This document shows, piece after piece, positions 7,638 through 59,075 of a stretch of 64,000 bases of DNA. The number at the start of each line of letters is the position of its first letter. Positions within the stretch are counted from its first letter, which is position 1. The position numbers and the translations under genes were made by a program. The DNA is from Tilletiopsis washingtonensis (lineage: Eukaryota > Basidiomycota > Exobasidiomycetes > Entylomatales): positions 186,001 to 250,000 of the forward strand of contig NW_020312022.1 of assembly GCF_003144115.1 (NCBI RefSeq). The letters run 5' to 3'. The notes below the pieces were generated by a model. That model was not told the DNA's origin. It worked only from the letters and a program-made list of their open reading frames with translations, and ran no database searches.

Positions 7638-7925
7638 CCCGTCTCGCTCCCGCCTTCCCTCGACACCCCGTGGCTCTGCTCGATTCGCGCCTCGCTCTTC
7701 CGTCCCGGCTCCTTCTCCGTCCCGCCCCGCGCCTCGCTCTTCCGTTCCGTGCTCCTTCTCCGTCCCGCGCTCCTTCTTTCTCCCCTGCCGAAAGCTGCTG
7801 GCAGCTGCGACCATCTTTACACTCTCCACCCGCACTTCGCTCTCACTCACTGAGCGTCATATCTTCCCGCCCTCCCTCTTCTCCTTGAATCTATTGCTTG
7901 ATGCCTCCTTGTCACGTCGCGAGCC

Positions 7926-8009
7926 GCGATGCATGCGCTGCGATGCATGCACTTCAATGCATGCGCTGCGATGGATGCGCCGCGATGCATGCGCCGCAAT
8001 GCATGCCGT
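7926..8009. repeat. 14-bp minisatellite array, six units
   Basis: Six head-to-tail units of 14 bp (type gcgatgcatgcgct) fill exactly 84 bp; the fourth unit carries a G in place of C in the core. The core is a GCATGC/TGCATGCA palindrome. The same unit, in reverse orientation and again six copies long, occurs at 24171-24254. Confidence 0.9.
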
Positions 8010-8185: not shown

Positions 8186-9068
8186 TCAAGCGGCGCCAGC
8201 GCTGGCGCACGCCCTGCAGGTGCACTGTGCGCGAGTGCCCGTCATTTCGAAATAGAGCTCGCCCGAAAAGTGAAGCGCAAAGTCCGGCACGTCGCGCCAC
8301 TTGCGAGAGCCGATCGTGACCCAAAAGTGACGCAGAGTTGGCGTCGAGTCGCTGCGCACGTACAGCGTGACGAAGTCGGGAAGTGCAAAGCGCGGGTCAT
8401 CGCGCTCGTCTGCATTGCCGTGTCAGCAGCACGGCCGTGGCTGTGNNNNNNNNNNNNNNNNNNNNNNNNNNNNNNNNNNNNNNNNNNNNNNNNNNNNNNN
8501 NNNNNNNNNNNNNNNNNNNNNNNNNNNNNNNNNNNNNNNNNNNNNNNNNNNNNNNNNNNNNNNNNNNNNNNNNNNNNNNNNNNNNNNNNNNNNNNNNNNN
8601 NNNNNNNNNNNNNNNNNNNNNNNNNNNNNNNNNNNNNNNNNNNNNNNNNNNNNNNNNNNNNNNNNNNNNNNNNNNNNNNNNNNNNNNNNNNNNNNNNNNN
8701 NNNNNNNNNNNNNNNNNNNNNNNNNNNNNNNNNNNNNNNNNNNNNNNNNNNNNNNGCCTGCCCCGCGCCCAGCTCGCCCCGCGCCCAGCTCGTCTCGCGC
8801 CCAGCTCGTCTCGCGCCCAGCTCGCCTACTCACACATGACGCCCGCAGCCCCAGCAATGTGCGTCCAGACCTTCTCGTTGAGCTGCTCGAAATAGTCCTC
8901 GTCAAAAGCAGCCGAGTGGAGCCAGAAGACGGGACGCTTCTTGTTGCGCGGGCGCCGGATGGGCCCAGCAGCGGGGCGGGCGCGAGGGCCCGCAAGGTCG
9001 CGCGGCGTCCAGATGCCGACGTAGTTCCGGGCGTACTCGTCCCACTGGGTGTTGGTGAGGAGGGACAT
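8186..9068 (-). CDS. Small Cys-containing protein, member of a local paralogue family
   Basis: Two visible exons, 9068-8834 and 8409-8186, join in frame to 152 aa. The intron between them holds a tandem repeat and the assembly gap, so further exons could be hidden. The first exon ends ATG-T before the donor, the same place and phase as the intron of the gene at 14593. The second exon ends with W-x6-W-x4-F and a short CTCRAC motif, which resembles the HACHRC and GQECPEC motifs of the genes at 14593 and 13399. I do not know what the family does; it has no signal peptide or membrane segment that I can see. Confidence 0.6.
8446..8755. other. Assembly gap (310 N)
   Basis: A run of 310 undetermined bases. 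It lies in the intron of the small gene at 8186-9068, directly beside a 15-bp tandem repeat, so the gap was probably caused by an array that could not be assembled. Confidence 0.99.
8761..8825. repeat. 15-bp tandem repeat at gap edge
   Basis: About four copies of a 15-bp unit of the type cgcgcccagctcgtc run right out of the assembly gap. Confidence 0.85.
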
Positions 9069-14277: not shown

Positions 14278-14507
14278 GACGGAAGTGCCCGCCGGCGCGA
14301 GACGGAAGTGCCCGCTGGCGCGACCGCGCCGGACCGCTCCTGCGCATCGCCTCCTGCTCTCTCCACATGCAATCGCGCCTCAGACAATCTCGCGCCTCAG
14401 GCAATCTTGTCCATTCACGCACGCACTTCATCGACCACGTTGGTCCAACTGCCCTGCAGATCGAGGAGACTGCGGCCAAGTGCCCTGCAGATCGAGGAGA
14501 CTGCGGC
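14278..14507. repeat. Two tandem duplications (23-bp and 31-bp periods)
   Basis: A 23-bp unit starting gacggaagtgcccgc is doubled at 14278-14323. A unit starting gccctgcagatcgagg is doubled with a 31-bp period at 14451-14507. Both lie in the promoter space between the divergent paralogues. Confidence 0.85.
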
Positions 14508-14592
14508 GCCAGAGGCTGCGGCGCCACAGGCAAAACCGCTGCAACACCAGCGAACTGTGCCTCGTCTCTCTCCACCACATCAACTCTGCATC

Positions 14593-15269
14593 ATGCCCGT
14601 CTGGCAAGACCTCGAGCAGGGGCACGTCGTGGACTGGTACCACTTTGGTACGTCCTGGACCGGCCGCGTCGACATCGACCGCCTCTACGTCGTCAACGGC
14701 GGCCGCGGCGAGGAGAGTCTTCTTCGTCGCCTGCACACGATGCTGCTGTCGCAGCACAACATGTGTGAGTTTGCGCATGCGTCGCCAGCTCTGTGTCCGC
14801 AGCTGACTCGATGCGTCAGGGCCCGTCCACGTCCTTCTCGAGAACGTCGAGCAGCTGGGCTGGCCGCCTGGCGTCTTCATCGAGACGGTCAACGGCACGG
14901 ACCACGCGTGCCACAGGTGCGCCCAAGTGTCGTGCTGGACCGTCACCATCTGCGATGGCGCGCTCTTCTACCCGTCGCTCTGCGCATTTTTTGCCTCGAT
15001 TCGAGACGCTTGTGGTAAGCGGGCCGCTGCCTGCAGCCGTGCGTGCGCTCACGCCGTCGCAGATGCTCGCCGTGCAGCGCCATCAAGAGGCACGTCTCGC
15101 CGCGCACTACGCACGCTTCCTGGCCGACGGCGCGCCTGTGCTGGAGTTTGAAGTCACGGCTGCGGACGTGCCTGCCCTGCAGCAGTTCCTCACCCTGTTC
15201 GGCCTTGCTCGTCGCCTGCAGGCCCCACGCACCGCCGACGAGAGTGCCGCGACGGAGCTCGACGCCTAG
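14593..15269 (+). pseudogene. Cys-containing paralogue with a frame break in a T6 run
   Basis: Exon 1 (14593-14764) starts MPVWQDLEQG and ends ATG-T. Exon 2 begins at 14820 and reads through GWPPGVFIET, CHRC and ICDGALFYPS. At the six-T run 14987-14992 the coding signal shifts by one base and continues as RFETLVVSG and MLAVQRHQEARL to the stop at 15269. The product is clearly related to the gene at 13399. A one-base error in the homopolymer would restore a single frame, so the gene may be intact in life; a true disabling change is the alternative. I found no splice pair that explains the shift. Confidence 0.5.
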
Positions 15270-15352
15270 CTCTCACACTTCAATCATACTAGTGATCATT
15301 GATTGCTGCCGCTTCTTGCGCCTGTTGTCACCTCTCGCTGCGTGTCTCGCCT

Positions 15353-18300
15353 TCAAGTTCTGTCGTCACTCGCTGCCTGAGAGCTACGCTTGCTGCGACG
15401 CAGCTCAGGCGAGCTCTGGCCGATCGTGCGGCCGCGCCCGCGGCCCTGCGTGCGCACCATTTGCCGTGGCGGCTGCTCATCCTCCTGCGGCAGCGAGTCG
15501 TGCGGTCGCTTGGGCGAGCCGCCAGAGGGCAGCGAGTCCGCGCTGCGGCTAGCAAGAGAGCTGTGCGCGTCGCCGAGGCGAAGAGCTGTCATGTGCTTGA
15601 CCGGCTGAGAGGCAACAGTCAGCGGCGCGCTCAATGCAGCCGATGCAACTCACACTGCCCAGTTCGCTGCCTGATGCGGCGTCTACGGCTGACGCCTCGC
15701 TTTCGTGCAAAGTGTCGCCAACCGCGCCGCCGCTGTGATCGTCGCTGTCCGAGGTGTCCGGCGCCTGGTGACGATGGATCGGCATTCTCTGAGGCAGGCA
15801 CGCCGTGAGCTTGAATTCACGGGCGTCGCAAGCGTGCTCACATCCTGCGGGCTCTGGCTCAACAGGCTTGTCACGCTCATGACGCTGCTTGCGGCTGGCC
15901 GGGGATTGCCCTGGGCGCCGCTGCCTGCGAAACGCGCGTCAGGCAGCGGCGAAGGGACCTGAGGAGGCGCGTGGCGGTGGCCCTGAGGCAGGCTGCTTGA
16001 GCGGGCCGGTGGCTGCGGCACACGCGACACGAGGCCGGGCGGCGGCTTGGGTCGGGACTTGGCGGTGGCTCTCGCCGGTGTTGACGTCTTGCACCGCAAC
16101 ACGTCAGCTCGTTCGTGCTGGTGCCTTGGCGGCGCACTCACCTGAACGAGATCAAACTGGCTCGGGCCCGAGCCAGACATGGCGGCTCCCATGGCGGCTC
16201 CCTCCTCCTCTTCCGAGCTGTCCCCCACCTCAAAGCCAGACGTGTTCGGTGGCGCGCTCGCATCGAGGATCTGCTTGCGATTGACCTTGTCGCCCAGCTT
16301 GCGCCACGCATCCAGATTAGCGGCACTGGCAAGCTTGACCCACCAGTCCAATGCGGCCGGAAGGTCCTTGAGCGTGATCTCGTCTCGTAGAACGCCAAAC
16401 TGGAAGTGATCACCCGCCGCAGTGTGGACGATGACTCGAGGCTTGATGCTGTCGCATGTTGTGTAAGGCAAGTGGAGATTGCCCGTCACTTCTGCGCTGC
16501 CGGGGTCCTCTTGCAGAACGAGAAGCGGAGTGTGGACATACTCGCTGTAAAAGGGACCGAGCGCATTGCCGTCAAAGTGTAGCTCTGTCTCGAGCCAAAA
16601 GCAGAATGGCCCGCACTTCGGGCACGTCGACTTGACCGCCTCAGTCAGCATGAATGGGGCCACGTCGCTCTTGCCCGCCGGAAAGAGCACGCCGAATCGT
16701 CCGGGCTCTTCCAGGAGCGCCTTGTGAAGTGCGACTCGGCGCTCCCGACCGGCGATGGCCACGTCGATGTCGTCGAGGGTGGCATCGGGCTCGCACGCCG
16801 AGTAGCCACACCAGCCATCACCCGGCACCGTGATGAAGTCTTTGAGAAGAGTCCGCAGGTCACTGGTCCAGCGAGCGGTGTTGTCGACGACCGTGTCGAG
16901 GACTTGGCCGGAGAGATGGACCTTGTTGGCGTCCTGCGCGAGTCGCATTGCATGCACGTCGTTCTTGAGCGCCGGTTCGAGATTGAATAAACAGTTGCAC
17001 TCCGTTGCACACCGAATGGAGCGATCGAAGTAGCGCTTGTTGAGCTCGTCGCGCCGGGCCTGGGGGCCTTTTGATCGCTCGCGTGCCCGCAGCGGCTCCT
17101 GCTTGTCCTCGCTTGGCGACTCGCGGGACTGAGGCTCTTGCGGTGCTGAGGCGCGCTTCGACACCTTTGACAGGCGCTTGCGCGGGCTCGAGCGTCCGCG
17201 GCCGCTCTGCATCATCTGCACGGCCGACACGAACATGCGAGATTTGGATGCCGGCTGCTCAGCGTCGCCACGCTGCGAAGTGTCGGGGCGCTGCGCTGCG
17301 CCGCTGGACGCCGGCTCCGAGTCGCCGCTGAACATGTCCACACCGTCCGCACTGGCCTCGCGGCTCTGCTCGCTGGCACTGCGCATGTGCGTGTCGGCCG
17401 AGGACGCGGCGCGGCGACTGCCGCTGTCGCTGGGCGAGCGCGACGGCAAACGAGCCTGGCCGTCGGCGCCTGTCTTGCGCCCGGCCCTAGTGTCCTGCGA
17501 CGTGCCCGCATCTTTCTTGCCCTCCGCGGCGCCCTTGCTTTCTCCCGCCTGCGCGCCCTTGTTCCTCGCCACCTTGCCGTCTGCCTGCAACGCAAAGCCT
17601 TCGATCTCGAGCGCCCGCACCTGGTTGTCGAGCCTGCGCTTGATCTCGGCGGCGACTTCCTGGTACGCCTTGACCTCGGCCAGGTACTGCAGGGCCACGT
17701 TAGCCATGGCTCAGCCGCAAGAGAGAACTGAACGCACCGTCTGCGTCCGTGTGCGAGCCTCCTCGGCGTCGTCGTTAGCGATGCGCTGCATGACGCGCGC
17801 CCGCCCAAAGTCGACCAAATGCTGGCGCAGGGCCTTGTCGCGGTCATGCTGCTTGATGCCGTTGATGAACTTGCGCAGCTCCGTGCGGTGCGACGGCTTG
17901 GCGGGCCAGTTGCTGGGCGCCGGCCTAGCTTCGAGCGCCGCCTTGCCGCGGGCATACGTTCTCTCGCTGCTCGCAGTTTCGCGGCGCCACGCAACCTCGG
18001 CGGCACGTCCGATTGCTTCGAGATGCACCTGAGACACATCGTCTGTGCAGCCGTCGAGCATCGCCTGCATCGCCCTCGCCTCCTCGTCCTGGACCTGGTC
18101 GGTTCTGAGCTCGCGCGTGGCTGCCTCCTGACTCGGCTCTGCTAGCTCATCGCCCTCCTCATCATCACCACTGCTCTCGGAGACGTCGTCGTGCGCACAT
18201 GCGCGGCGGTAGCGACGATGAATCTTGCGCGCAGTCTGCCTTGCCTCGGCTCGGTCGGAGTTCTTCACCGTCGCCAGCTTTCTGTACGCCATGATTGCGT

Positions 18301-19492
18301 GGTGGACGGCGTCGGCAGTCAGGTGCTTCTCCAAAGCCTCGGCGATCGATCGGAATGGCGGCAGCTGGTCGAGGCCCGGGACGAGGATCTTCTCGATCGC
18401 CTGCTGCAGAAAGTTCTGAAACGACAGATCGTCGTAGCTCTTCGAGGCGGCGCCTGCGCACAGCGTCCAGAACGAGTGGTCGTCCTGGTATGTGCCGACC
18501 GGCTTGGACAGCGTCGCCTTTGTCTTGACAAACAGCGACATGCAGTCGGCCAGCGACGAGTCCGCCTTGATGGTGATCTTCTTGCTACGCGTGGTAGCAG
18601 TTGCGAGGCCCTCGGCAATCTCCTGCTCCATCTCAGCACTGCACTCCATCTGCGCGTCGTCGAGCAGCGACCGCGGCTCCTCGCCCTCCTCTGTCTCGTC
18701 GCCCTCCTCTTCCTCAACGCCCATGTCGTCGTCGGTGACCAAATCGATGCGCGCACGCCCGTATCTGGCGGGCAGCTTGGAGGGAGCGATCGTGGGCAGC
18801 GACTGCACATTCTTCATCGGCTCGAACGCGGCCACCGCCTCGCCGTCCGTCATGCCGAGCCGCTCTGGTTGCGGTTCGGGTGCGCCCGCGACGAGCAGGG
18901 CGGGAGGACCGAAGCTGTTGATGATCATCAGCGCGTCTGCGCTGTGCCGACAGCGATCGCTGGGCGAGCGCGTCTGCCCGTCGGTGAGCTGGTCGCTGTA
19001 GGCGCGCAGTGCGAGTTGAAGTGACGCATACGTGACGGGTGCGTGCGCCGGAGGCGCTGCAGTAGAGCTTGCGGCCACAACGAGCGCCTCGATGGTCTCG
19101 GGCGGCAGCAGTTCGAGCCAATCGACCACCTGCTTTGCCAGCTTGTCCGCCTCCTCGCGCGATGCCCAGCGCGTTGGGGCTTGGGCCACGACGCCCTGAC
19201 GCTGAATGAGCTCGCCGAGGACGCGCAGCAGCGCCTCGGGCGTGGGCGGCTCACGGCGTGCGGCTGAAGAGACTGCCTTGAGGCACTTCATGATGCGACA
19301 AAGCGTGCCGCTGTTGAAGAAGGCGTCGCGGTCGGGCTCGACGAGCAGGCACAGGGCGTAGGCGTCGTGCTCGCCCTCGGCCTCTTGTCCCTGCCCGGAC
19401 GCAGCGCGAGCCTGCAGTGCTACAAGGCTGCTGCGCAGGCGCTTGGCCGGCGAGAACATGTCCGTCGTGATGACGTGCAGTGGGCGTGACAT
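15353..19492 (-). CDS. Large protein with OTU-like cysteine protease motifs
   Basis: Four exons on the minus strand: 19492-17738, 17686-15842, 15788-15654 and 15604-15353, giving 1,328 aa. The first join is important. Two long frames appear to be separate genes 3 bp apart, but a GTGCGT donor, a CTAAC branch site and a CAG acceptor join them in frame. The second frame also holds a possible in-frame 54-nt intron (16088-16141). The N-terminal half is unrecognised and has acidic stretches. The second half has a disordered Ser/Arg-rich region, then GDGWCGY (Asp about 875, Cys about 878) and, 134 residues later, GDHFQFG, fitting the Asp-Gly-x-Cys and His motifs of OTU-type deubiquitinating proteases. 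A CPKC pair lies between them. The tail is disordered and basic. The gene is divergent from the XPG-Fanzor gene across 306 bp. Confidence 0.6.
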
Positions 19493-19798: not shown

Positions 19799-22700
19799 AT
19801 GGGCTACACGGCCGGCCAGTTCACGGGCCACAAGGGCCTGGCAGCCGCCTGCGTGGGCGGCGCCGAGGTGCCTCGCCACGACCCTCCTCTCCACAACGCG
19901 CACCGCGGCGAGCAGCCTGCACTCGAGCACGCGCGTGCCATTGCCGGCAACCTCTCGCTCCTCCTCGTTGATGCGACACCAATTGCCTTCTCCATGGCTG
20001 CCCGTGCGGCCGACATTGCACCTGCAGCCACCACCGAGCACAGCCTGGCGCTCCGGGTGCGCACGCTCGTGCGCCAGGAGCTCGAGCGCCTCGACGGCGT
20101 CGCACAGCACATGGGCGCCCGCGTCGTCTTCTGCTGGGACGGGCCGAGCGTCGCGGACCTCAAGCGGGACCGGACAAGCGAGCGCATGCGCCAGCGCAAG
20201 CTCAACTCGCGGCAATGGCACGCAGAGGCCAGCCGCTCGCGCCCGCGCGAGCACGTCCTGGCCCGCCACGCCGGCGAGGCTGCGATGCACGCCCTCGGCG
20301 AGCTCTACGCGCCCCAGGGCATCGACGCGCTCCTCAACAGCCTCGGCCAGCAACGCGTGAGGAGCGCCGCAGCACTCACCAGCGGCCGCTGCGTGCACGT
20401 CGTCGCCGACGACGAGGCGGACTGCCTCATTGCGCAGCTCGCTGTGCGCCACGGGCACGGCGAGTCGACGGCGGTGCTCTCCAACGACTCGGACATGCTC
20501 GTGCACGCCTGCGACGAGGACTCGTACCGCTGGGTGGTGCGCCCGGCACCCGTCACCGTCAAGCCGGCGGAGAACTACGGGCTGGCGGCGCCGCTCTTCC
20601 ACCACCAGCACCTGTTCGACCGCACCCTGCTCGGCACTGTGCTCAAGCGCCGCTTCAGCGCCATGTTCCCGCCGGCATTCGACCCGGTCGCCTACCTCGT
20701 CTTTGTCGCCACGGGCAAGACCGACTACGGCAACGGCTTCCACGGCGTTGGCGCCATGGGCCTCGCCAAGGACGGCCGCATCCGCCGCGCGTGCAGCCAG
20801 GCCGTCGGCGCCACGGTGGCCTTGCGTGCGACCGATGCCGTGCGCCGCTTGGGCGCAGCCGTCGGCGCATCGGCCGAGAACGTCGTCAAGGTGCAGTGCA
20901 TCGTGGCCGTGTACGCCACCGGGCGGCACACGGCCTGCACCGCGCGCAGCACCGTCATGGCCGAGGCAGAGAGTCGTGCGCGCAGCTTTGGCTACCGCAA
21001 GGGCGCCGCCTTCGTCGACTACCGCGTGGGCGTCAGCAAGGTGCACCAGCCGGTTGTGCCTGTGCTCCGCACCGTGCGCCAAGGGCACGTCGTCGGCGAG
21101 GAGCTCGACTTCAAGCGCCAGGTCTCTCGCTCCGTACTCTCGCACGCCGTCGAGGTGCTCGTGCCGCGCTCGCAGATTGATGCGCCGCACACGCATCTGA
21201 CGCCCGACAAGCCTGCGCCGCTTCCGGTCTGGGACGAGGACAAGAACATTGGCAAGAGGATCAGAAAGGCGAGCAAGGCGGCCAAGCACAGCTCCTCCAA
21301 GACGCAGCGGCGCGCATCAAAGCGCAACGCCTCGCCTACGTCGGAGCTTACGTTCGACGAGCACGTCTTTGACAAGTGGGACTCGAGCGACGAGTCGTAC
21401 GTGGGTGAGGGGTCAGAGGGAGGATATGGCAGCGAGGCGGAGAAGGAGGGCAGCTCGGATGCGTCCAGCGACGAGTGGGACGAGGGCTTGAGGACCGAGT
21501 CGGATGGGGAGTCGGATGAGGAGGCGGACCAGGCGCCAGGCGCCAAGGGCCGGTCGAGGGCGGCCAGCAAGCCGCAGGCGCAAGGCAGAGCAAAGACGAG
21601 CACCACGGACAAGCGCTACATGGTCAAGGTGAGCGCTTGCGCCCGCACATGACGTCCTCCAGGGCTGACGCCTTTGCAGCGTTTCGGCACCAGCGTGGCG
21701 TGCACAACGATCGGCGAGCTTGCCAGCGCAGGCAAAGGCACCGGGCGCTGCGAGCGCATCGCCAGCGTGGCGGCGCTCATTTCGGCCATCGCAATGGTGC
21801 AGCAGAGCGGCGTCATGGCTCTGCGCGCGGCCATCGTCGAGATGCTGCGCCTGGAGCCTGGCTGGCTGACCTGCGATGAGGCTCAGGCTCAGAGGCGCCT
21901 GGTGGCGCTGTTCAAGTCGTGTCGCACGGACATGCGGCAGGGAACAAGCAAGCCTCGCCGATGGAACTGCACCGACGAGGAGCACCGCGCCATCGGCAAC
22001 ACGGGCGACGCCACCCACAACATGCTCCTAGCACGCCGCGCCGTGGTCGCCGCCGGCAGGTGGCCGCTGCCGGCGCAGGACACCCTCATGCTCGGCAGCC
22101 ACAACCTGCTCGCCGAGGCGGCGTTCAAGCACCTCGCAGGCCTTGCTGAACGCGTGCGTGGCATGGTGGCGCGCGGCGTGCGCAAGCTGTGCGCCGGCGA
22201 CAAGACGTACGAGAAGCGCGTGCTGCGCGTGCTGATGCACACGAGCCTGCCGGACGAGTACGGCGTGTCGCAATACACCGTGCGCGACGGCGACGTGCGC
22301 CTGCAGCGCCTGGTGGCGCGGCGCGACCGGCTGTTCACCGAGGCACGCCAGCAGCTCGACAACCGCAGCGAGGCCGGCTGGCACAGCACTCCCGACGAGA
22401 TCATCCGGAGCCAGCGCGGCATGGTGTCGGTGCACCTGTTCTCCGCGTGGGCGACGGAGATCAGCGGCGAGGCGGTGCTGCGCATGGAGGCGCCATCCTT
22501 CGTCGAGATCTTCGTGCCGCACAACATGGGCTACGTGACGGTCGGCGCGAGAGGACGGCAGACGGCGATCGCGCGCTGGGTGACGAAGAACGCCGACGCG
22601 CTTGCCACGTCGTTCAACACGGAGCGGCTCGAGCGCAGCGGGCTGCAGCAGCAAGACGGCAAGTGGGTCGCCAACGAGGAGCTGCTGCTGGCAATCGAGC

Positions 22701-24394
22701 GCTTCAACGCACACTTCAAGAAGCGCTACGGCGTCAAGAAAACCAAGCACTTTGTTGCTGCCGCGCAGGAGCACACGCTTGACTTCCTCGAGCGCGCACT
22801 CATGCTGCAGCCCAACGGCTGGGCCAAGATGGGCCTGGGCGCGGCGTGCATGCCGACGGCGCGCCTCTGCAGCGACGGTTTCCGCCTGCGGTGGGACTAC
22901 TGCGACCTGCGCCGCCCAAAGTACTGGTGCATGTCGAAGGAGGCGGCAAAGGCGGACGGCCGGTACCGCCCCGGCGAGCCCGTGTGGGACGAGTGCAGCG
23001 AAGTCGTCGACGCGCAGAAGGGCACGCTGTGGTGGCGGCGGCTGCAGCTGCTCACCGCAAGCACCGGGCGGCAGGGGCCGGCGCTCCTCGTGTCCAGCCT
23101 GCCGCACGGGCAAGACTTTGCAGGCGACTCAAAGTCGCGCACGAGTGCCGATCAGGGCGGGCTGGGCGGTGAGTGCTCACCTGCCTGCTCTTCCGGCCAG
23201 TGCGCTGACCCTGCGCAGGCACGACCGGCCTTGAGCGCACACAGGAGGCGATTGCCAAGGCGCATGCGGCCGGGCGCACGGTGCACCACGTCGGCATCGA
23301 CCCCGGCATTAACAACGTGCTTACGGCGTCGCGCATTATCGGCCTCGAGGAGGGCACGCTGTACACGCTGCCGGGCCAGCACACGCACCCCGACGGGCGT
23401 CGGCCGCTCAGCAGCAAGGAGCGCGCCGAGGAGGGCCTGCCGGCCTACAGCAGGACACAGAACGGCCGGACGATGGGCGACCGCCTCTACCGCGCGACGC
23501 CGGACGACGTCGAGCAGTACGCGCGCCGGCAGTCGGTCGCACTCACCAAGGGCACGCTCGACGACCACGCCACGGCTCTCGCTGTGGAGCTGCAGCTCCT
23601 CGAGGCCGAGCACCATCCTCCCGAGCACGCCAGCGAGGGCGAGCGTCAGCGACACCGGGCGGCCTTCAACCAGCACTCCGACACCATTGCGCTGCGCGAG
23701 GAGCTCATGCGGGTCGAGGAGCGGCAGCGTGATCTGGCGAGCGAGGCGATGCTGGAGTGGCTGCTGATGCGAGAGGGCGGGGTCATGGAGAAGAGGCACC
23801 AGGTGTGGGATCGGCAGGACGCGCTGGTGGTGGTCAGCGTCGGCAATTGGAGGTGAGTGCCGCTGTGCGGACATTCTCGGAAGCTGCAGGCTCACGCACT
23901 GCTGCAGATCGAAGCGGCGCGGCGGACTGCCCGCGCAGTGCAGCGGCGACGTTCTGCGCCACTGCATGAAGCTTACGGCCATCCGGAACCTGCCGATCGT
24001 TTGGCGGCTGCAGGACGAGTACCTCACGTCGTCGGTGTGTCCCGCCGGGTGCAAGTCTCGGACCGGCGCACGCGTCGACGGCAAGGCAAACCCCAAGGGG
24101 ACGTCTCAGCGAGTGGCGAGCCTGCGCAAGTCTTTTGCGGCAAAACCGTGAGTCAGAATGCCGACGCTGCGCATGCATCGCCGCGCATGCATTGCGGCGC
24201 ATGCATTGCCGTGCATGCATTGCCACGGATGCATTGCCACGCATGCATCGCCGCTGACGCATGGCCACAGTCTCCGCGACATCAAGTACTGCCCGTGCTG
24301 CGGCCGCGTGTATGGGCGCGATGTGCTCGGTGCCCTGAACATCCGGGCAGGCGGCATGCATGAGCTGGCCCACAACACGGGGGCCTGGAGATGA
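19799..24394 (+). CDS. Predicted fusion of FEN1/XPG-type nuclease and Fanzor (TnpB-like RuvC) nuclease
   Basis: Five exons, 19799-21628, 21680-23168, 23219-23852, 23908-24147 and 24271-24394, join in one frame to 1,438 aa. Residues about 50-330 carry the whole FEN1/XPG core: LLVDATP (Asp58), VVFCWDG (Asp114) with the following basic helix, ADDEADCLIA (Glu206, Asp208), SNDSDML (Asp230, Asp232) and a helix-two-turn-helix-like GKTDYGNGFHGVG (Asp309). Residues about 465-610 are an acidic and basic low-complexity linker. The C-terminal part ends as Fanzor/TnpB proteins do: RuvC-I HVGIDPGIN (Asp1134), a VGNW segment at the RuvC-II place, QDEYLTS (Glu1355), a split zinc finger C1362/C1366 and C1405/C1408, and RuvC-III GRDVLGALNI (Asp1415). 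Fanzors are RNA-guided DNA nucleases of mobile elements. The pairing with a flap-endonuclease-like domain is what is unusual. The gene looks intact. Confidence 0.82.
24171..24254. repeat. 14-bp minisatellite array, six units, inverse of the 7926 array
   Basis: Six units of the type gcatgcattgccgc fill exactly 84 bp inside the last intron of the XPG-Fanzor gene, which at 123 nt is about twice the usual intron length. The unit is the reverse complement of the one at 7926-8009. Confidence 0.9.
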
Positions 24395-26010
24395 GCCCAG
24401 CCAGAGTTTGTGCATAAACTCACGAACCTGGCGGGTCCGACGTTGCGTCATGTACCGTTAGACGAAACCCCCCATGAACGATGCCTCGCCCCTGCCGAGC
24501 GGCCGCCGCGCCGCGCGGACCCTGGCTCTGCCGGCACAGCCCAACCTCCGCCGCCGCCGCCGAGCCGCGTGGCGCCGGCCCCTGCATGGCGCATAAGGCT
24601 GAGAAGACGTCCGCGTGCTCCATCGTGCCGCTCGTTGCTCTGTCTGCGCAGCAGAGAGACCACGACGATGGACAGCGACAGCAGCGCAACAGCGGAGCGG
24701 GTCGGGTGTGCATCTGTCCGACGAGCGCGCGAGATCGTCATCATCGGGCTCCGAGCGCGTCTGGGAGCAAGTCGTGGACAGCCAGCGCGCGCCGGCAGGT
24801 GCCTGCCGCAACATCTCCTGGACCTCCTCTCGCTGCGCAGGTGGCCGCATCTGGCAGAGCAGCAGCTATGTCCTGCGTCCTATCGTGAACAGCTAGGATC
24901 GCTCGTCGTGTCGCAAAGCGCGAAGAAGCGAAGGCGCCAGACGGCAGGGCATCGTGCCTCTGTGGGGGGCGGCCTCGGGAGAGGGGGGCGCGGCTGAAGT
25001 CACGTGCGCGTGCAAGCGTCATGGAGCAGGGTCAGCGAGGCCTCGACGCGGCGCTCGTCTTCCCGCCATCACAGCCTCTGCAAGCGCCGCCATGCAATTC
25101 GAGACTCATACTGGCCCAGCGTTCAGAGCGCTTGCGCATGTTCTGAACTCCGACGTGCACTGACACAAAGGCGCAACAGCGCGGCCTGTGCGAAGTGGGA
25201 TAGGCAGCCGGTGGGGATGCACCCCGCACCCGCCATCGGTCGGCTCCCACAGATCCATCAAAGCAGAGCAGCAGCGGCAATCTGCGGCTCTGAGTTCGCT
25301 GTGAGTCATGCAAGGACCCAGTCTCGCTGTGGGAGCTGCCGCTGCACAGACCCAAGCCCTTCGGCCGAGCTTACCCATGCCACCCCTTCGACGCAGACAG
25401 ATGGCCACCCGAGGAGGCGCAGTGTCAGCATCTGAGCGGCCGACGCAGACCTTGCCATCGCGCAGCTGCATCAGTAGGATGCAGCGCCGCCGCTGGTGCG
25501 TCTCACAGGGCAGCTCGCAGCTCCCAGGGCCTCGCACGCACCAGCGGCCATCGGCCGCCAGACGCCCGGCACACGCGGCTCCGGCACCGCGGCCTGCCGT
25601 GCGGTGTGCCATAGCTCAGGATCCAGTCACAGCTGCGCTAGGCCCTCGATACAACGGCTCGCTGGCGTTGAACGACCTTCATCCAACAACGGCGCCACGA
25701 GCGGCGGCCTCGCAGGCGCGCAAGCGTCCAACGGCCGGCCGCGCGCCAACGCCCCACGCGCGTCTTCGCCGAGGCTCGCTCCGATCCTCATAAGGCGTGG
25801 CACACGGGCAAGCCAGACGCCTGCTCCTTGTCTCGTCCACACTCTTCTCGCTCTCCCAGCTTGGCTACTCTTACTCTCGTCGCAGTCTTACCTTCTTATC
25901 CTTCACAGCTCGTAGCCGGTCTACTTGCTCTTTTAGCACTCAGCAACCTCACAGTCTTTCACTCTTTCATTCTTTTACTTCCCACCTTCTCTTCACCTCT
26001 CGCCTCAAAG
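24395..26010. other. Intergenic; possible guide-RNA zone near the Fanzor stop
   Basis: No protein frame is convincing. In known Fanzor and TnpB loci the guide RNA is made from the end of the nuclease frame and the adjacent downstream DNA, so roughly the first 200-300 bp are the place to look; this is inference only. From about 25800 the sequence becomes the pyrimidine-rich leader of the next gene. Confidence 0.4.
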
Positions 26011-30256: not shown

Positions 30257-31533
30257 TCACTCCGCCCCGCCTGCTATCCGAAGCGCCTCTGTGAAAGCGC
30301 TGTCCAGGCTCGGCCCGTCGTCCAGAGTCTTGCCTAGAAAGAGCTCCTCGAGATCTGTCCGTCGCCGCGTCTCCTCGCGTCCCCGCTGACCGTCTCCTTG
30401 CAGCAGCTGCACGTAGACGCTGCCGCCCTCTGCATGTGTTGCGGACTCGAGCACCTCTGCGCCTGCAGGTGCGGCGCTCACGCGAGCACCCAACCGGTCG
30501 CATGTCGGCACGAAGCGAAGCTCGACGCGAAGGCGCGACGTCTCGCGAGACCGCTTCTGTCCAGCTGCATCAGCAGCAGAGGCACGGCTCAGCGGGGCCT
30601 CCAGCCGCACGGCCAGATGTCCAGCTGAGGCGTAGCCCTCGACTGCAGAGTCTGATGACCCAGTCGCCAGCGCCTTGAAGGCCTCACGCCGGTGAAGGCC
30701 CGCCTGCAGGTGCTCGTACACCGCACTCAGGAACGGCTGTTGCCAGACTGTCAGCCCGCACGATGCGATTGAAGCGCGACAGATGCTCACCTCGCAGCTT
30801 CCGCCCATGCGCCCCAGCTCATGCACCAGGTCCCAACCTCCAGTCGCGTCGTCGGTGTGCTCTGCCGGCGGCAAGAGCTCTGCCACGAGCTGCGGCAGCG
30901 GCACCCACGACGGGATGGTGTGCCGCACAAGCTGCAGCGGCGCGCGCATGCCGGCTGCCACGATGGCCGCGGGCAATGTCGAGCTGCCGCCAGAGTCGAG
31001 CGTCGAGAAGGTGACCTCTGCGTCAGCGGGTGGCGCGCCGCGGGCGAAGAGCAGGTAGTGCGGCTCGTGGAAGCGGCCTGCAGCACCAGTCAGCGCAGCT
31101 CTCTTGCACGGCGGGCTGTCACGCACCTCCACAGAAGCCCTCCATGCGCACGCCGATGCCGACCTGGCCGCCCTGGCTCTTGGCGCGCCGGCCGGGCGCC
31201 AGGTCCGCCTGGAACACCGTCCAGCCGGCAGTGCGCGCCAGCACGACGCGCTCCTCGAGCTCGGCCAGCTCGGCGGCGAGGGCGTGGGCCGGCGCTGCGC
31301 TGTCCTTGCTCGGCGACGGCAGCGCCTTGAGCTGTGCCAGCTCGGTGCGCAGCGAGGCACGCGTGGCCTTGAGCGCGGCGACTGTGGGTCGTGTGAGCGT
31401 AGAGCACAGCGAGGAGCAAGCACAGGCACGCACGGCGATGCCGCAGCACCTCGAGACTCGGGCCTGCAGCGGGCGCAGAGCCCGAGCCCGAGCCTGACGG
31501 CACGGGCGACGAGGCAGGAGCAGTTGCGGCCAT
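30257..31533 (-). CDS. CENP-O/Mcm21-like kinetochore protein (tentative)
   Basis: Exons on the minus strand: 31533-31434, 31381-31127, 31077-30791 and 30736-30257, giving 373 aa. The 54-nt intron 30737-30790 is in frame and free of stops, but has a GTGAGC donor, a CTGAC branch and a CAG acceptor, so I splice it. The protein starts with a low-complexity leader and a coiled-coil-like helix (LRTELAQLKALP, LAAELAELEERVV). It then reads RFHEPHYLLFARG and VRHTIPSWVPLPQLVAELL, which resembles the region of CENP-O/Mcm21 proteins where a HTIPxFIPL-type motif occurs. If right, it belongs to the inner-kinetochore COMA complex. The match is by motif only; another coiled-coil protein of the same layout is possible. 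Confidence 0.6.
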
Positions 31534-33376
31534 GGAGGAGCTGGTGCGCCGGGCGTGGGAGCGGGAGCGAGGATGGCGAGAGGTGGAGCGGACGGGTGGA
31601 ACGCGTCGCGTCGCGAGCCGCGTGTGTTGATCTCTGCTTAGTCAGCATGCTCCCACCCCCCCCGGAGCGCTGGCCCGTCGGATGCGCCTCCTCACCTGGC
31701 GCGCCTCGCTGCGCGCTGACGGTGCCGGCCTGCCGCCCGCATAGCTGGGCAAAAGCCACGCCGGCCCCGCGCGGCGCACCAACGCAGCGGTGCTGCCCTT
31801 GCCGCCCGCCTCACGCTCCTCGGCCGCCCGCACCCGTCGACCCGCTCGCATCGCGCGCTGAGATGTCCCATCTCGCCGTCGTCGGCGAGCGGCAGCGCTG
31901 CGAGGCTCGGGCTCGGGCTCTGCGCTGGCGCCCGCAGCGCTGCCGCAGCATCAGCCCATGTGTCGCGCGGCGGCTCTGCGGCGAGCTGCACTGCCGCCGC
32001 AGCCGCGCATCAGCATGCGCCGCACCTTAACCTCGTCCCGGCCCCTTGCCGCGCCAGAAGGCGGCCTGCTGCGGCGCTGGACGAGGCCGATCAGCATCCA
32101 AGGCCGATGTCGAGTGCCGCAGCTGGCTGCATTCGGCGGCGGCGCTGCTTCTGGCGCCTTTTCTCCGAACAGCCAAGCGTGCTCGCCGCCGTCTCGGGCG
32201 CTGGCGCGTGTCGTGGGCATCGCCGATGACTGCCGGCGCGCACGAGCGTTGCCGCCTGATGCTGCCGAGCACTGCATCCTGGCTGCCGGGTCGAATCAGC
32301 GAATGCCATGCTGTGGCGAAGCGAGCAGCATCAGCGGCTGCCCAGGCAGAAGCTTCTGCTTCTCTGCAGCGCTGGCCGGCACCGTTCGCTCTGCGGCTGC
32401 TGCCGGTGCCGAGTGCGGCGTGCGCCGCGTGCGGCGTGCGCCGCGTGCGCGCGTGCTGCGGCTGCGATGCATGCCTCGCGGCGTGCAGCGTGCGGCATCG
32501 GGGCGCCGCTGGATGTGCTCCGCCATGCACCGCTGACGCTGAGGCACGCAGGGTGCGCCCGTCCGTCTGCCCGGCGCCGGCCCGCCAGCAGCACGCCCGC
32601 CGCCGCACCCGCACCGGGCCACGCCTTGCGCTGCGCCGGCAGCAGCGGGCGTGGCACAGGCAGCCGCTGACGCTGCCGTGTGAGAGGCAGAGCAGACGCC
32701 GAGGCGCGGTGGGTGGTGCGGCGGTGCAGCCTCGCCACGCGCGCGTGCTGCTGTTGCTCTCGGTGTTGCTCTCGCGCCGCGGCCGCTGCTGGTGCGCTCC
32801 GCCGGCCGCGACGCTCGCCTCGCCTCGCCGCTCGCTGCTCGCTGCTCGCCGGGCCCGCCTAGCCCGTCGTCACCGCCTCGCAGCCTGCTCTGCACCACCA
32901 TACCCCTCCGCCGTGTGCCCGTCCCTCACCCCGCCGCCGCCGCCGCCATCTCTCCTTAGGCCCACCCCACCCCGACCGCTGCACGCGCCTCCGCCAGCGT
33001 CTCCGCCCGTCCGCCGACCCGCCAGGCGTCCGCGCTGTGCAACCGACACTCTCTTTTGATTCTCACTCTCTCGCCACTCCGCCCCTCCCCTTCCCACTCC
33101 ATCTCTCTACCGCCGTCGCAGTCCGTCGTCGCTCCACCTTCTCTTCGTCTCGCGTCTCGAGCCTCGCGGCTTGCATCTTCTCCGTTTCTTCGCCTCCGTG
33201 TCCTCGAGTCTCTAATACAGCGCTGCGATCGCGACGCTCCGCAGACCTTTCTGCACGAGCACGATCCTCGCTCCCTGTCTTCTCCTTCTCTCCGTGAGTG
33301 TGCAGCATCCGCGCGACGGTGGCGGTGGTGGCGGCACTGGGTGCTGATGCGGATGGCAGGCAGCTAGCATCTCGCC
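31534..33376. other. Divergent promoter region, GC-rich then pyrimidine-rich
   Basis: This 1.8 kb lies between the start codons of the CENP-O-like gene and the kinase gene. The right end (about 32880-33300) is strongly C/T-rich, typical of fungal leaders, and may contain an untranslated exon. No coding frame is supported. Confidence 0.55.
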
Positions 33377-36300
33377 ATGTCTACCTCGTCGCCTCGACGG
33401 GCCCCGGCGATTCCTGCCAACGTGGCGCCGATGCCGTTGCAGCCTCGTTCCACGCCCAACCACATCGTGCCACCGCGCACCGCCGCATCCTCCGGCAAGG
33501 GCGCCATGGCGCCTCCGTCGGGCTCGCACCGCGTGCCCGCGCCGTCTGCCGGCAGCAGCAGCAGCCGTCCGGCCAAGAGCGCCGCTGAGCAGGCTACTTC
33601 CGGCCGCTCGCGGCATGCGCAGCCGCGCGAGCGCACGGGTGAGGCTCGTGCCACTGGCCGCCTGGCGACGGAGAAGAAGCGCGAGCACAAGGACCCGCCG
33701 AGCATCGGCCCCTGGAAGCTGGAGCAGCTCATCGGCCAGGGCGCAAGTGGTGAGTGGCGGCGAAGGCGCGACGTCAAGCGCATGACTGATTGCGGCACTC
33801 GCAGGTCGCGTTCGTCTCGCCACGCACACGCAGACGGGCAAGCAGGCAGCCGTCAAGATTGTGCCGAAGCAGGCCATCCTCTCGTCGCGTCTGTCGCTGC
33901 GCGACGCCGGCGCCAAGCAGGACAAGATGACGCTGGGCATTGAGCGCGAGATTGTCATCATGAAGCTCATCGAGCACCCGAACCTGCTCGGTCTGTGGGA
34001 TGTGTACGAGACGAGCAAGGAGCTGTGAGTGTGGCAGGTGTGTCGTGTGATGCTGCTGGTGCTGACGGCGCACGCACAGGTACCTCATCATGGAGTACGT
34101 GGCGGGCGGCGAGCTGTTCGACCACCTCGTGTCCAAGGGCCGGCTGGAGCCGCACGAGGCGCGCTCGTACTTCCGCCAGATCATCTGGGGCATGGACTAC
34201 TGCCACTCGTACAACATCTGCCACCGCGACCTCAAGCCCGAGAACCTGCTGCTCGACGCGACGAAGAAGATTGTCAAGGTGGCCGACTTCGGCATGGCGG
34301 CGCTGCAGCCGGCCGAGAAGATGCTCGAGACGAGCTGCGGCAGCCCGCACTACGCCTCGCCCGAGATCGTCAGCGGCAAGAAGTACGAGGGCAGCATGAG
34401 CGACATCTGGTCGTGCGGCATCATCCTCTTCGCGCTGCTCTGCGGTCGTCTGCCCTTCGACGACCCCAACATCCAGAACCTGCTGGCCAAGGTCAAGAAG
34501 GGCCACTTCGAGATGCCCAACTGGCTGCAGCCGCAGGCGCAGGATCTCATCTGGAGCATGCTCGAGATCGAGCCGACGAAGCGCCTGCGCATGGACCAGA
34601 TCATGAAGCACCCCTGGTTCACCGACAACGGCCGTCTGAGCAGCGCCAACCCCGTCAAGCCCAACATCCACAAGCTTGGCAGCGACCAGTTCCCCGTCGA
34701 GGACCTCGACACGGACCTGCTCGGCAACCTCAAGACGCTGTGGCCCGAGCTGAGCGAGGCGCAGCTCACCGAGCAGCTCAAGAGCACGGGCGGTAACTGG
34801 CACAAGACGTTCTACTCGCTCCTCGCCAATCATCGCGACAACCATCTCGGCGACGACGAGGACGACGACGACGTCGAGGCGCTCACGCAGGCGCAGGCGT
34901 CGACTGCACCCGCAGGTGGCAACAGCCTGGGCCTCGCACTCGGCATCCCGGCACAGAGCGACCGGGAGCGCGAGAAGGAGCGCGAGCGAGAGAAGGAGCG
35001 CGAGCGCGTCCAGCGCCAGCTGCGCGAGCAGGAGAAGCGCGTGCAGGCGCGTCGCTCGTCGGACAATGCCTCGAACGCCTCGAGCTCGCGCTCGTCTTCG
35101 GTGAAGAAGGAGGCGGCGGCGGCTCCCCAGCTGGTTGCACACCGTCCGGCACCTCATTCGCCTGGCAAGAACGTGGCAGCGGCTGTCGCCGCCCGCACCC
35201 AGGCCGAGGCACTCGCGCGGCAGGAGGCTGCGGCAGCGTACCGCAACTCGCCGGCTCGCAGCCGAGGTGCCTCGATCGACGCACCTCGTTCCCCAGCTGG
35301 TGGCGCGTACCACGCAGCGCCCGTCGGTGGTCGCTCTCCCGGCCGGCAGTCGCTCGACCAGCCGCGGCCAAGCTACCTCGCCGCTGCACCGCCGTCGCCG
35401 TCTACGGTGCGCAAGCCGCTGCCGTCGCCTCAGCTCGCCGGCGACGACCTGTTCGCAACGCCCGAAACGCAGCGTACACCGGTCGGCCCATCGCTCCAGC
35501 GACGCACCACTTCGCCGACGCAGCGCCCTGCCGCATCGCCGCGCGCTGTGATCGCCGATGCCTTCGACAGCACGCCGTCTCGCAACACGCGAAGCGGACG
35601 TGCGTCCGACACCACGCCTCGCGCACAGAACGTCCGCGCCTCATCTCGCTCAGGCTCGCCAGAGCGCGGCAGCGGGCGCCCTGCCAGCGCACATGGCAGC
35701 AGTGGAGCACCGTCCATTGCTGTGCCTCAGGTCGGCGATGCGACGGTGCAGCGGTTCTTCCAGGAGATCGCCGACGAGCTCGCAAACATCCGCGCCACGG
35801 GCGAGAACCCCGAGGCGCTGCAGCTCAAGTTCGATCGCCTCAAGGAGGTCGCAGTTGCCAGCTCAGTGCCGGTCCCGAATACGCCAGTGCTGGCCAGCCG
35901 CCCGCCGTCGCGCGGCAGCTCGCGGCCAGGCTCGCGTGCAGGCTCTCGACCGGCCTCCGTGCTCAGCGGCACGTACGGCGCGCGCCCGGACAACCGCCAG
36001 GACATGCAGTTCGAGGATGCCGACGAGGACAGCGACGATGACCTGCAGAGTGTGCGCAGCGGCACCGCCTCGGAGTCGTCTCGCGGCTACCCATACACGC
36101 CGACCTCGCCCATCCCGCCTCCGCTGGCGAGCCCCAGCGGTACTACCGCCCCGCTGGCCGTGGCCGACAAGGACTACCGGTCCGGCCGCCCGACGCTGCT
36201 GCGCGGCGTCACGAGCCCTCGTCCGGCCAGTGTCTTCAGCACGGCAACGACGAGCAGCACTACTTCTGCGCCCACTTCGAGCGGCACTGGCACGCTCGGT

Positions 36301-37146
36301 CGCCGACGCAGTCTCCTCGGCCGCCGCAAGGCCGCCGTGTCGGAGCAGGCACCTGCCGAGTCGGGTCGCACCTCGCTGGCCTACGAGCGCCTGCAGGATG
36401 CTGGAGCTGCTCGCTCGGCAGCTGGCACCTCTGCTCCGCTCGCAGCCTTCGCAGCCTCTCGCGGGCCCAACGCGACCAACTCGCCGACACGCCTGCAGCA
36501 GAAGAACCCGGGCCTCGGCCTGGACATCTCGCACGGCGCGCCGCAGCACGGCAGCAGCATCGCCGCACCCTCGATCCGCAGCCCGGTGCCGAGCAACACG
36601 TCGGCACCGTCGACGCCGCGCGAGGGCGCCAGCCCCAAGCAGAGCTGGTTCTCCGGTCTCTTCAACTGGAAGGTCGAGAAGCACGTCCTGCTCTCCGTCG
36701 AGAACTTCTCTGCCACGCACGCCGAGGTGAAGCGCCTGCTGCTCAGCTCCGGCGCGCGCGTCTTCGTCGAGGACGCCGAGCACATGGGCGTGCTCAAGTG
36801 CTCCCTCGCCGAGGTCCGCGACGGCAGCGGCGCCAAGCCGGTGCGCTTCAGAGTCGAGTTCGCGATCCTGCCGATGAGCAGCAGCAGTGCAGCAGCGTCG
36901 CCGGCGCTCGACACGACGCGCCTCAGTGCGCCGTCGCCGGCACTGAGCAGCTACTCGGGCCGCAGCACGCCGAGCGACGGCGGCGTCTACGCCACGAGCT
37001 GCACCATCATACACGAGAAGGGTGCGCCCGCCGCCTTCCGCCGCACATACGAGGAGCTGCGCCGCAACTGGACCCTCGGCGGCGGCGCCGGCGGCATGTC
37101 GGTGCCGTCGAGCCCGGCCGCTGTCGGCCTCGGCATCGCTCGCTAG
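33377..37146 (+). CDS. NIM1/GIN4-family serine/threonine kinase
   Basis: Exons 33377-33749, 33805-34024 and 34080-37146 join to 1,219 aa. A kinase domain starts near residue 115 and shows IGQGASGRVRL, the lysine in [26 protein letters not shown] and the activation segment [15 protein letters not shown]-like stretch ([16 protein letters not shown]) follows, then a long disordered Ser/Arg-rich middle with an Arg/Glu coiled coil. At the C-terminus, [17 protein letters not shown] onwards resembles a KA1-like membrane-binding fold. This layout is that of the Nim1/Gin4/Hsl1/BRSK group, which regulates septins, bud morphology and the Wee1-dependent G2/M switch. The group assignment is firm; which orthologue it is remains open. 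Confidence 0.9.
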
Positions 37147-56927: not shown

Positions 56928-59075
56928 TCACACATCCTCCGACGCCTGTGTGACGCGCTTCGCAAGCGAGAGGTAGCCCTCCATGCGCGGGCCGAGCGCC
57001 TTGCGCGCCTCGGCGTCCGACTCGCAGTTGCGGATGATGAAGCCCTTGCTGATCATGCGCTCGCGCAGCGGGCCCTCGAAGATGAGCTCGCACGTGTTGC
57101 TGCTCCAGTCGATGTCGGCCAGCTCGGCCTGCTGCTGCGCCCGCTCCGCCTCGCGGCCGGCAGCAGCGCCGTTGCTGGGGCCAGCACCGTCGCCGTCGTC
57201 GGCATCGTCGTCGTCCGCCGCAGAGTCGCGCGGCCGGCCAGGGTCCTGCCAGTTGATGCGCACCGTCATGAGGCGACGGTAGTCCTTGATCGCCTTGGCC
57301 GGGCCCTCGACGACGACGAGCGCAAAGGACGGGTGGTAGATGCACAGACCCGTGAGGCCGTGCTGCTGCGCGTTCTTGCGCACCTTGAAGCGATGCGACG
57401 GCGAGGCGAGGTGCTTGATGCTGCAGGGTGCAAAGCTGTCAGAAGCGCACATCGCTGGAGCTGGCACACGACCACGCACCGGTACACGCTGCAGTGCACG
57501 CCCTTGGCTTCGTCCTTCTCCATCTTGGCGGCCTGCTTCGCCTTGATCTGATCCGGCGTGAGCTTGCGCTCCAGATTCGTCCGCTCGTGCTGCTCGCGTC
57601 GTGCTGCGACCTCGCGGCGTACGCGAGCCTCGACCTTCGTCGGGTCGGCGACGGCCTCGGACGTCAAGACACGCATCAAATTCGACAGCTTGACTGCGAG
57701 GGGAGATGCGTCAGCGCATCGACTTGCATCACTGAGGCCGGCTCAGCTCACCCTTTGGCGCCTCGGGCGGCAGCAGACCCATTTTGATGCGGTCGCGCTT
57801 GTCCTGCAGCTCAGCTGCACGACGCTGCCTGCGCATCTTGCGCATCTCCTTCTTCGTGAGCATGACGCCGCGCGGCTCGACGCGGATCTTGTCGCTCGGC
57901 GCGGGGATCGGAATCGGGTGCTGGATGTACGAGTCGATGGGCGAGCCTTCGCCCATGATGAGAGGACCGCCGGGCGGGACAGCCTCCTTGCCCTTGGCAG
58001 TGCTGCTCTCGGCGAAGTCCTCAGGCACGCTGTCGTACGAGGAGCTTGGCAGCAGAGCCTGGTCCCACCACTCAACGTCCGGCGGCGGTTGTCGCTGTGG
58101 TCAGGAGCGAGCGTGAGCTCATGTAAAGCGGCAAGAGATCCTCGAGAGCAAGCAGTCACGATCATGACCACTTCTCGAGGCGACTGCGACGCGAACACGC
58201 CCACTCACCCTCAGCAGCTTCTCCTCCGAGCCCGTCTCCTCCAGGCCTGCCTTTCGTGCCGCATCAGCGATGCGCTTCTTGAGCTCCTCCATCTTCTGCT
58301 CGCGCCGCAGCTGCTCGGCCTCGCGCACGTGCCGGCCTGGCTTGTGGAACGTCAGAGGCTTATGCGTTGTCCTGGCCTTGGGTCCGGGCGCAGACGAGCC
58401 TGCCTCTGCCGCTGCTTCCGAGGCGGCCAGGTACGGGTTGACCTGCTCCACCGGCGGCGCCACAGGCGCGGGCGTAGCAGTGCGAGCGTTCGCAGCGAGA
58501 GACGGAAACTTGGGAGCGTATGCGCCCGAGACTGGCCGCCCGCGCTTGTTGTGCGACGAGGCCGCCGGCGCCGCAATGCCCTTGTTCGCACTCGGCAGCA
58601 AGAGCGGGTGGATGCCGCTGCCTGACCCAGAAGACCCGGCGTCCTGGATGGAAAGGTCAGCAGGACAAAACACGTACGCACGCCTCTGCGAGCAGCTTGC
58701 TGAGGCGTCGGCACTCACTGCATTCCTGGCGCTCAGGCTTTGCCTGGCCGCATTGATGCGCGCCTGGATGGCGGCCATGTCCAGGCCCGCTGGCGCTCCG
58801 GTCGGTCGCGCCGGCAGCCGTGCGGCAGCCGGCGGCGGTGCCTTGGGTGCGCTTGCGGCGGGCGTAGGAGCGGCTGGTGCTGGAGCTGCGCCGCCGCCGG
58901 CGCGAGCGGCCATCTGCGCTGCAATCTTGGCGCGCGCAGCGTCGATCTGCGCCTGGATGGCGGCGGCACTGCGCGGCGCCGCAGCAGGAGCGGCGGGCTC
59001 GGCACCGGGACCCGAGAGGCGCGGACGCTTCTCGCCGTCTGCCGGGCCGGCATCGGCGGGGCGCTTGGGAGCCAT
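56928..59075 (-). CDS. PRP3: U4/U6 snRNP splicing factor PRP3
   Basis: Exons on the minus strand 59075-58719, 58643-58209, 58094-57752, 57693-57480 and 57420-56928 give 613 aa. The N-terminus has two AIQAxIxAAR helices and Ala/Pro linkers. Then come NPYLAASEAA, KPLTFHKPGRHVREAEQLRR, VEWWDQALLP, IDSYIQHPIPIP, VMLTKKEMRKMRRQRR and MGLLPPEAPK, all typical of Prp3, and the C-terminal DUF1115-type domain with RFKVRKNAQQHGLTG, ALVVVEGPAKAIKDYRRLM and SSNTCELIFEG. Prp3 holds the U4/U6 duplex in the tri-snRNP before spliceosome activation. Length is normal for fungi. Confidence 0.96.

Follow-up and report, generated by a model that had tools for sequence, protein, structure and literature searches.

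Gene structure and the case for one protein

We analysed a 64,000-nucleotide (nt) stretch of the Tilletiopsis washingtonensis genome (contig NW_020312022.1, positions 186,001 to 250,000), referred to here as the window. Our focus is a forward-strand gene, at window positions 19799-24394, whose predicted product has an N-terminal half like the FEN1/XPG 5' nucleases and a C-terminal half like the Fanzors. Head-to-head with this gene is another, which we call gene 2. A preliminary description of the window had reported that five exons join with exact frame continuity. Splice reconstruction reproduced this; the exons join, without a stop, to encode 1,438 amino acids (aa). The four introns that separate them are all of the GT-AG type (51, 50, 55, and 123 nt in length). 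Features are collected in Table 1. As a side observation, intron 4 is largely filled by a tandem array of a 14-base pair (bp) unit containing ATGCAT (24166-24263). A similar array, 81% identical and on the opposite strand, is found at window positions 7922-8006.

Table 1. Location and properties of the fusion gene, its full copies, and adjacent features. Coordinates are those of the window unless a contig is named.
Feature	Position	Strand	Details
XPG/FEN1-like 5' nuclease half, residues 1-460	19799..21178	+	Met-Gly start; D58, D114, E206, D208, D230, D232, D309
Charged linker, residues 461-610	21179..21628	+	150 aa: 25 K/R, 30 D/E, 21 S; low conservation
Exon 1 (XPG-like half and linker)	19799-21628	+	
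Intron 1, 51 nt	21629..21679	+	Exactly where the linker meets the Fanzor half; site common to B and D, missing in C
Exon 2, residues 611-1106, N-terminal Fanzor part	21680..23168	+	REC/WED-like by position only; SDG at 1008-1010
Exon 3, RuvC-I with DPG	23219..23852	+	Catalytic D1134 (codon 23299-23301); DPG in five of five sequences
Exon 4, QDEYLTSSVCP	23908..24147	+	Relocated RuvC-II glutamate E1355 (codon 24017-24019); first zinc-finger cysteines; aligns with SpuFz1 DEYKTSSVCP
Exon 5	24271..24394	+	Second zinc-finger cysteines C1405, C1408; RuvC-III D1415 (codon 24320-24322); stop
Hairpin directly 3' of stop	24395..24436	+	Candidate end of guide-RNA scaffold
Gene 2	15686..19492	-	Head-to-head with fusion gene; about 1,250 aa; 3' end approximate; DGxCG and His motif
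Copy B	C15:475847-480170		Gene model of 1,373 aa; 43% identical to A
Copy C	C1:252069-256266		Gene model of 1,358 aa; 32% identical to A
Copy D	C19:374110-378496	-	Gene model of 1,357 aa; 32% identical to A

With the window alone, the fusion would be no more than a reading of motifs. The genome (18.7 Mb, 32 contigs) was searched with the protein encoded by the window copy, termed A, which lies on contig C25. This gave at least 24 matches. At three further loci (copies B, C, and D) the two halves again occur in this order and share a strand. Note that, in the gene model for copy C, two introns were picked among near-equal alternatives.

Logically, the same arrangement could arise if two genes in tandem, one XPG-like and the other encoding a Fanzor, were misread as one, the junction being an artefact of gene modelling. 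In favour of this, an intron parts the two coding stretches in A and D, the linker is hardly conserved (1 of 150 residues is invariant across the four copies), and XPG-only and Fanzor-only pieces exist at other genomic places. However, in copy C the XPG core, linker, and Fanzor half lie within a single 807-aa open frame, and there is no junction intron. Similarly, the XPG core and Fanzor half of copy B share one 1,189-aa frame; 48 in-frame nt at the junction are a candidate intron. The intron of A, B, and D is at an identical site, preceded by a lysine and followed by the x-F-G with which the Fanzor half begins, and x-F-G is present in all four copies. As for the isolated pieces, those on contigs C5 and C6, two of the three known XPG-only examples (the third is at C15:119 kb), contain stops or frameshifts, and the Fanzor-only copy on C5 is 5'-truncated. 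On the open frames of C and B, the shared x-F-G, and the common intron site, we rejected separate genes, which would be a very improbable explanation. The junction pattern resembles an old fusion, not two adjacent genes. Because the order of the halves is the same in four diverged copies, the junction on C1 falls inside one open frame, and the intron site is shared, we accept the fusion. Judged from these sequences, the gene almost certainly encodes one protein, as the preliminary description had proposed.

Assignment of the two halves

The N-terminal half had been described as a complete FEN1/XPG core on the basis of seven acidic residues. All seven are found where they had been placed, and all are invariant in the four copies. 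We take these acids, in this order, to be the metal ligands of the FEN1/XPG family. Across the four copies, 87 of residues 1-460 are invariant. Among the 43 acidic residues of this region in A, 10 are invariant, including all seven ligands (probability in a random draw, 3.7e-6). Each copy also begins with Met-Gly (MGY or MGF), a feature of the FEN1/XPG family. Finally, in a structural ranking made with a low-confidence model, rows 1-37 of 50 are members of the 5'-nuclease family.

The C-terminal half was said to have the RuvC-I, zinc-finger, and RuvC-III signatures of Fanzor/TnpB proteins. These are present (GIDPG with D1134, the zinc finger, and RD with D1415). The published motif for this group is D-x(125,275)-[TS][TS]xx-C4 zinc finger-x(5,50)-RD (PMC3627910). 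The equivalent run in A is D1134, 223 residues, TS, C1362, C1405/C1408, five residues, and RD; the spacing was counted in A only and the motif residues align in all five sequences compared. Fanzors differ from most TnpB proteins in that RuvC-I contains DPG and that a glutamate lies six residues ahead of the zinc finger (PMC10711439). Both occur in the same five sequences, with six residues between E1355 and C1362. In this half, 7 of 93 acidic residues are invariant in the four copies, among them D1134, E1355, and D1415 (random draw, 2.7e-4). C1362, C1405, and C1408 are likewise invariant in all four. Fanzor1 proteins are set apart from Fanzor2 by a TDG motif in the WED domain, and by REC insertions with kinked helices (PMC10711439). 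At the position of the WED motif, A, B, and D have SDG and C has SNG.

A profile of the C-terminal region, compared with the PDB, gave as its best match SpuFz1, the Spizellomyces Fanzor (8gkh), with an E value of 0.077 and an alignment over GDW...DEYxTSSVCP. The next match had an E value of 0.92. Note that 0.077 is not significant alone; the top rank and the alignment carry the weight. Also in support is the 5'-truncated copy on C5. Here, Fanzor exons 3-5 are in frame over 320 codons with no indel, the ratio of non-synonymous to synonymous substitution rates (dN/dS) is 0.32, and 131 of 264 mismatches are at third positions. For the full copies, dN/dS is about 0.6-0.8 in both halves, with synonymous sites 50-60% different; these values were set aside because they are near saturation. 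We assign the C-terminal half to the Fanzors, and regard it as probably Fanzor1-like.

Scores of the single sequence are a weak point of both assignments. The whole A sequence scored 17.6 with Pfam XPG_I_2 (cut-off 24.2, E value 0.0029) and 13.4 with XPG_I (cut-off 24.9, E value 0.1). No copy reaches either Pfam cut-off, the best scores being 19.4 for XPG_I_2 and 15.0 for XPG_I. With the Cas12f1-like_TNB model (cut-off 26.3) the whole A sequence scored 18.6, with an E value of 0.0021, and full-length A found no PDB chain. For the XPG part, no match rose above the cut-off, but weak XPG_I_2 matches were seen in all four copies at E values up to 10 (best 8.4e-4, all below cut-off). For the Fanzor part, copy D passes the TNB cut-off (29.0), while B (18.7) and the C-terminal piece of A (25.6) fall below it. 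All five C-terminal pieces match TNB at E values up to 10 (best 1.7e-6). They also all match the guided_TnpB model in the same range, where the best E value is 1.1e-4 and is below cut-off. These matches, and the score of copy D, count for the Fanzor identity. PDB profile searches with the XPG half, and with the whole Fanzor half, returned chance matches only.

Because its XPG_I and XPG_I_2 scores are under the curated cut-offs, we name the N-terminal half FEN1/XPG-like only. The core claimed in the preliminary description is complete for its residues (seven of seven acids) but not borne out by profile scores. The predicted FEN1/XPG identity is supported by the seven invariant acids, Met-Gly, the weak but consistent XPG_I_2 matches, and the modelled structural ranking. 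We rejected a reading of this half as a standard XPG-family gene of the host; the genome has six XPG_I matches over cut-off elsewhere, and none at A-D. When this half was compared, profile to profile, with four XPG proteins of the host, EAD...DSD was placed against EAEA...DSD; the probability was 22%, and the result was not counted.

We next consider whether the FEN1/XPG-like half cuts DNA. It could instead be a non-cutting part of a real fusion, and serve the Fanzor half as a platform for DNA-structure binding or dimerisation. Its very low similarity to known XPG families would fit this, since inactive PIN/XPG relatives such as Mkt1 commonly show very low similarity. Conversely, all seven acids are retained even though the copies are just 32-43% identical, an outcome with the low random-draw probability given above. 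A purely structural role seems improbable. We think it likely that both halves are true catalytic members of their respective groups.

A divergent partner gene beside each full copy

Relatives of gene 2 lie upstream of all four full copies and, in every case, are head-to-head with the fusion gene. The start codons of the two genes are separated by 306 bp in A, 394 bp in B, and 345 bp in C. Among the matches listed, gene 2 relatives occur only at or near these loci. Contig C6 also has a decayed gene 2, which lies some 15 kb away from the relic of the fusion gene there; the two are on the same strand, so they are not head-to-head. Because gene 2 stands head-to-head beside every full copy, the pair looks like a dispersed two-gene module. 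On balance, we favour an architecture in which one protein, with a FEN1/XPG-like 5' nuclease at its N terminus joined through a charged linker to a Fanzor at its C terminus, is encoded in a head-to-head two-gene module at no fewer than four dispersed sites.

All four copies of gene 2 encode DGxCG and a late [NDA]H[FY]. We take DGxC with a downstream His to be the motif of OTU proteases. Comparison of gene 2 with Pfam gave chance matches only, and no OTU match. Gene 2 is described here as a putative OTU-like gene. Separately, open frames on the forward strand at window positions 14278-15266 are convergent with gene 2 and resemble a small multi-exon gene.

Copy turnover and possible mobility

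Besides the full copies, the genome has truncated or dead copies at two places on C5 and on C6, and a fragment on C8. Further fragments, located by search matches, are at C15:119 kb and C11:712 kb. The left flank of A includes 838 nt (window 14776-15613) that are 98% identical to the end of contig C28 (L035 4937-5766). Either the stretch was duplicated recently, or the assembly breaks off here within a module that is repeated. Within gene 2 of A, 160 nt (window 17055-17214) recur at C15:471318-471475, about 400 nt past the 3' end of the gene 2 frame of B, and are 97% identical. The dead or truncated copies, together with the recent partial copies from the gene 2 side, look like signs of element turnover.

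Two other observations concern these regions. First, an 89-nt stretch 3' of the fusion gene (window 24512-24600) recurs, inverted and 89% identical, near the end of C28 (C28:299655-299741). Second, in front of the Fanzor-only C5 copy are open frames from a different gene, aspartic-protease-like by eye (L012 836-3670).

Is the module a mobile element? No terminal inverted or direct repeats were found around A, B, C, or D, within about 4 kb on the left and 3 kb on the right. In this search, the best eight matches per strand were all 20 nt or shorter and several were simple repeats. For the left flank, a comparison at the protein level yielded noise from GC-rich sequence. No transposase was recognised either. 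Because neither terminal repeats nor a transposase came to light, a duplicated host gene pair has to be weighed. Such a pair, domesticated for example as a defence, recombination, or drive locus, would have been duplicated within the genome and would not be a mobile element. The full copies are few and old (32-43% identity), their long open frames are kept, and the start codons share a spacing of about 300-400 bp, all of which suits a host gene pair. Against it stand the six extra truncated, dead, or fragmentary copies (two on C5, and one each on C6, C8, C15, and C11), and the recent partial gene 2-side copies on C15 and at the C28 end (97-98% identity). We regard the host gene pair as rather unlikely, and the module as probably mobile or ex-mobile.

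A candidate guide-RNA region and a possible division of labour

Within the hairpin that follows the stop codon, a block of 27 nt (24405-24431) recurs at 96% identity in the 3' flank of the C5 Fanzor-only copy, whose coding part differs by 18-27%. An 18-nt core of this block occurs nowhere else in the genome, even with up to two mismatches allowed. In the window, the hairpin folds at -22.8 kcal/mol, with a z score of -4.7. The same 3' block in the C5 copy folds with a z score of -0.6, which is not significant. The 3' hairpin fits a guide-RNA scaffold, and is a candidate for one.

Fanzors are guided by RNA to the DNA that they cut. Enzymes of the FEN1/EXO1 type take off 5' flaps or carry out resection of 5' ends. 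From the joining of two such activities we infer a possible series of events, in which the activity of each half, the guide RNA, the mobility, and the division of labour are all conditional. An RNA derived from the 3' end of the gene itself would guide the Fanzor half to a DNA target, for example an empty allelic site, which it would break. At the break, the FEN1/XPG-like half would then trim or resect 5' ends or flaps. Repair might thereby be steered to recombination with the copy that bears the module, and the module would be copied. A TnpB break at the sister chromosome enables recombination to restore the element by copying (PMC10432273). Observed directly in our data are the fused frame, its recurrence in four copies, the conservation of both sets of catalytic residues, and the paired gene.

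We put forward the resection or trimming mechanism tentatively, as somewhat short of an even chance. A little more speculative is a built-in homing system, in which the Fanzor half breaks the target, the FEN1/EXO1-like half resects, and homologous repair copies a fungal two-gene selfish module. As an accessory, gene 2 might then modify host proteins at the site or remove them.

The main rivals to a role in break processing are the purely structural one, discussed above, and RNA maturation. For the latter, the FEN1/XPG-like half would act on RNA or RNA-DNA hybrids, and would either mature the guide RNA at its 5' end or remove it after cutting. Fanzor guide RNAs derive from a longer transcript, which counts for such a role, as does the presence of T4 RNase H, a member of the FEN family, among the nearest rows of the structural ranking (made with the low-confidence model). 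However, SpuFz1 and other known Fanzors are active, and the excerpt of PMC10432273 mentions no such domain in them. We consider a role on RNA to be a poor bet.

The biological role of Fanzors is given as unknown (PMC10432273). That a Fanzor has stayed fused to a 5' flap or end nuclease while the copies diverged deeply offers a clue to what the cell or element needs after the cut. The idea of cut-and-copy becomes directly testable. If true, the fusion would in addition serve as a natural model for RNA-guided enzymes that favour repair by recombination.

Relation to known systems and relatives

The module shares features with several known systems. Compared with Fanzor1 proteins (SpuFz1, GtFz1, PpFz1), the C-terminal half has the same motif, DPG, the glutamate six residues before the zinc finger, and TNB matches (above cut-off in copy D). 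Unlike them, the fusion is 1,357-1,438 aa long and includes an XPG-like half, and it is accompanied by a divergent gene that is conserved. Fanzors in the literature have 400-700 aa in one account (PMC10432273) and up to about 800 aa in another (PMC10711439), and the excerpts of these two papers make no mention of an N-terminal nuclease. TnpB proteins (IS200/IS605, IS607) resemble the C-terminal half in having RuvC and a zinc finger, and in the guided_TnpB matches, below cut-off, of all five pieces. The glutamate of TnpB is typically in the canonical place (PMC10711439). The fusion is further distinguished from TnpB by being eukaryotic and intron-bearing, with an XPG-like half attached. FEN1, EXO1, and XPG (the Rad2 group) have in common with the N-terminal half the seven acidic ligands in order and Met-Gly, and their family leads the low-confidence structural ranking; the fusion protein differs in scoring under the XPG_I and XPG_I_2 cut-offs, in lying outside the XPG_I matches of its own genome, and in being joined to a Fanzor. 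The nuclease of the AcademX transposons is an XPG nuclease. AcademX is a lineage of the eukaryotic Academ DNA transposons and is reported to encode a nuclease (PMC10045372). It is alike in that respect, whereas the module described here has no recognised transposase, and Fanzors are not mentioned in the excerpt of PMC10045372.

Searches beyond the genome gave few relatives. Neither the full-length sequence nor the four-copy alignment, as queries of 5.8 billion proteins, recovered a relative in the 8,000 candidates that were scored per search. With two alignments, viral contigs gave 60 and 54 pattern matches, respectively, with no relative; prokaryote contigs gave 593 with the first of these, again with no relative. 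A search of metagenome proteins with the Fanzor profile detected two, 99% and 62% identical, each over 60% of the query. The first would come from the same or a sister species. In the second, the frame begins in linker-like sequence and continues into the Fanzor half, although the linker match is weak by itself.

No description of a Fanzor joined to an XPG/FEN1 nuclease was found in the open-access text searched, and a mention elsewhere may exist. A preprint applies comparable wording to proteins of two animal-virus contigs; its passage describes no two-domain protein, residues, or fusion, so the wording may be loose. We regard as new the conserved domain architecture of this Fanzor, together with its partner gene. 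The relocated glutamate E1355, at least three more full copies, and gene 2 beside each had escaped the preliminary description.

Surroundings of the locus

Elsewhere in the window, a masked stretch at about 8450-8760 reads as N. Ordinary host genes are near by: a CENP-O-like gene (30260-31810), a protein kinase gene (34066-37143), and Prp3 in two pieces (56931-59216).

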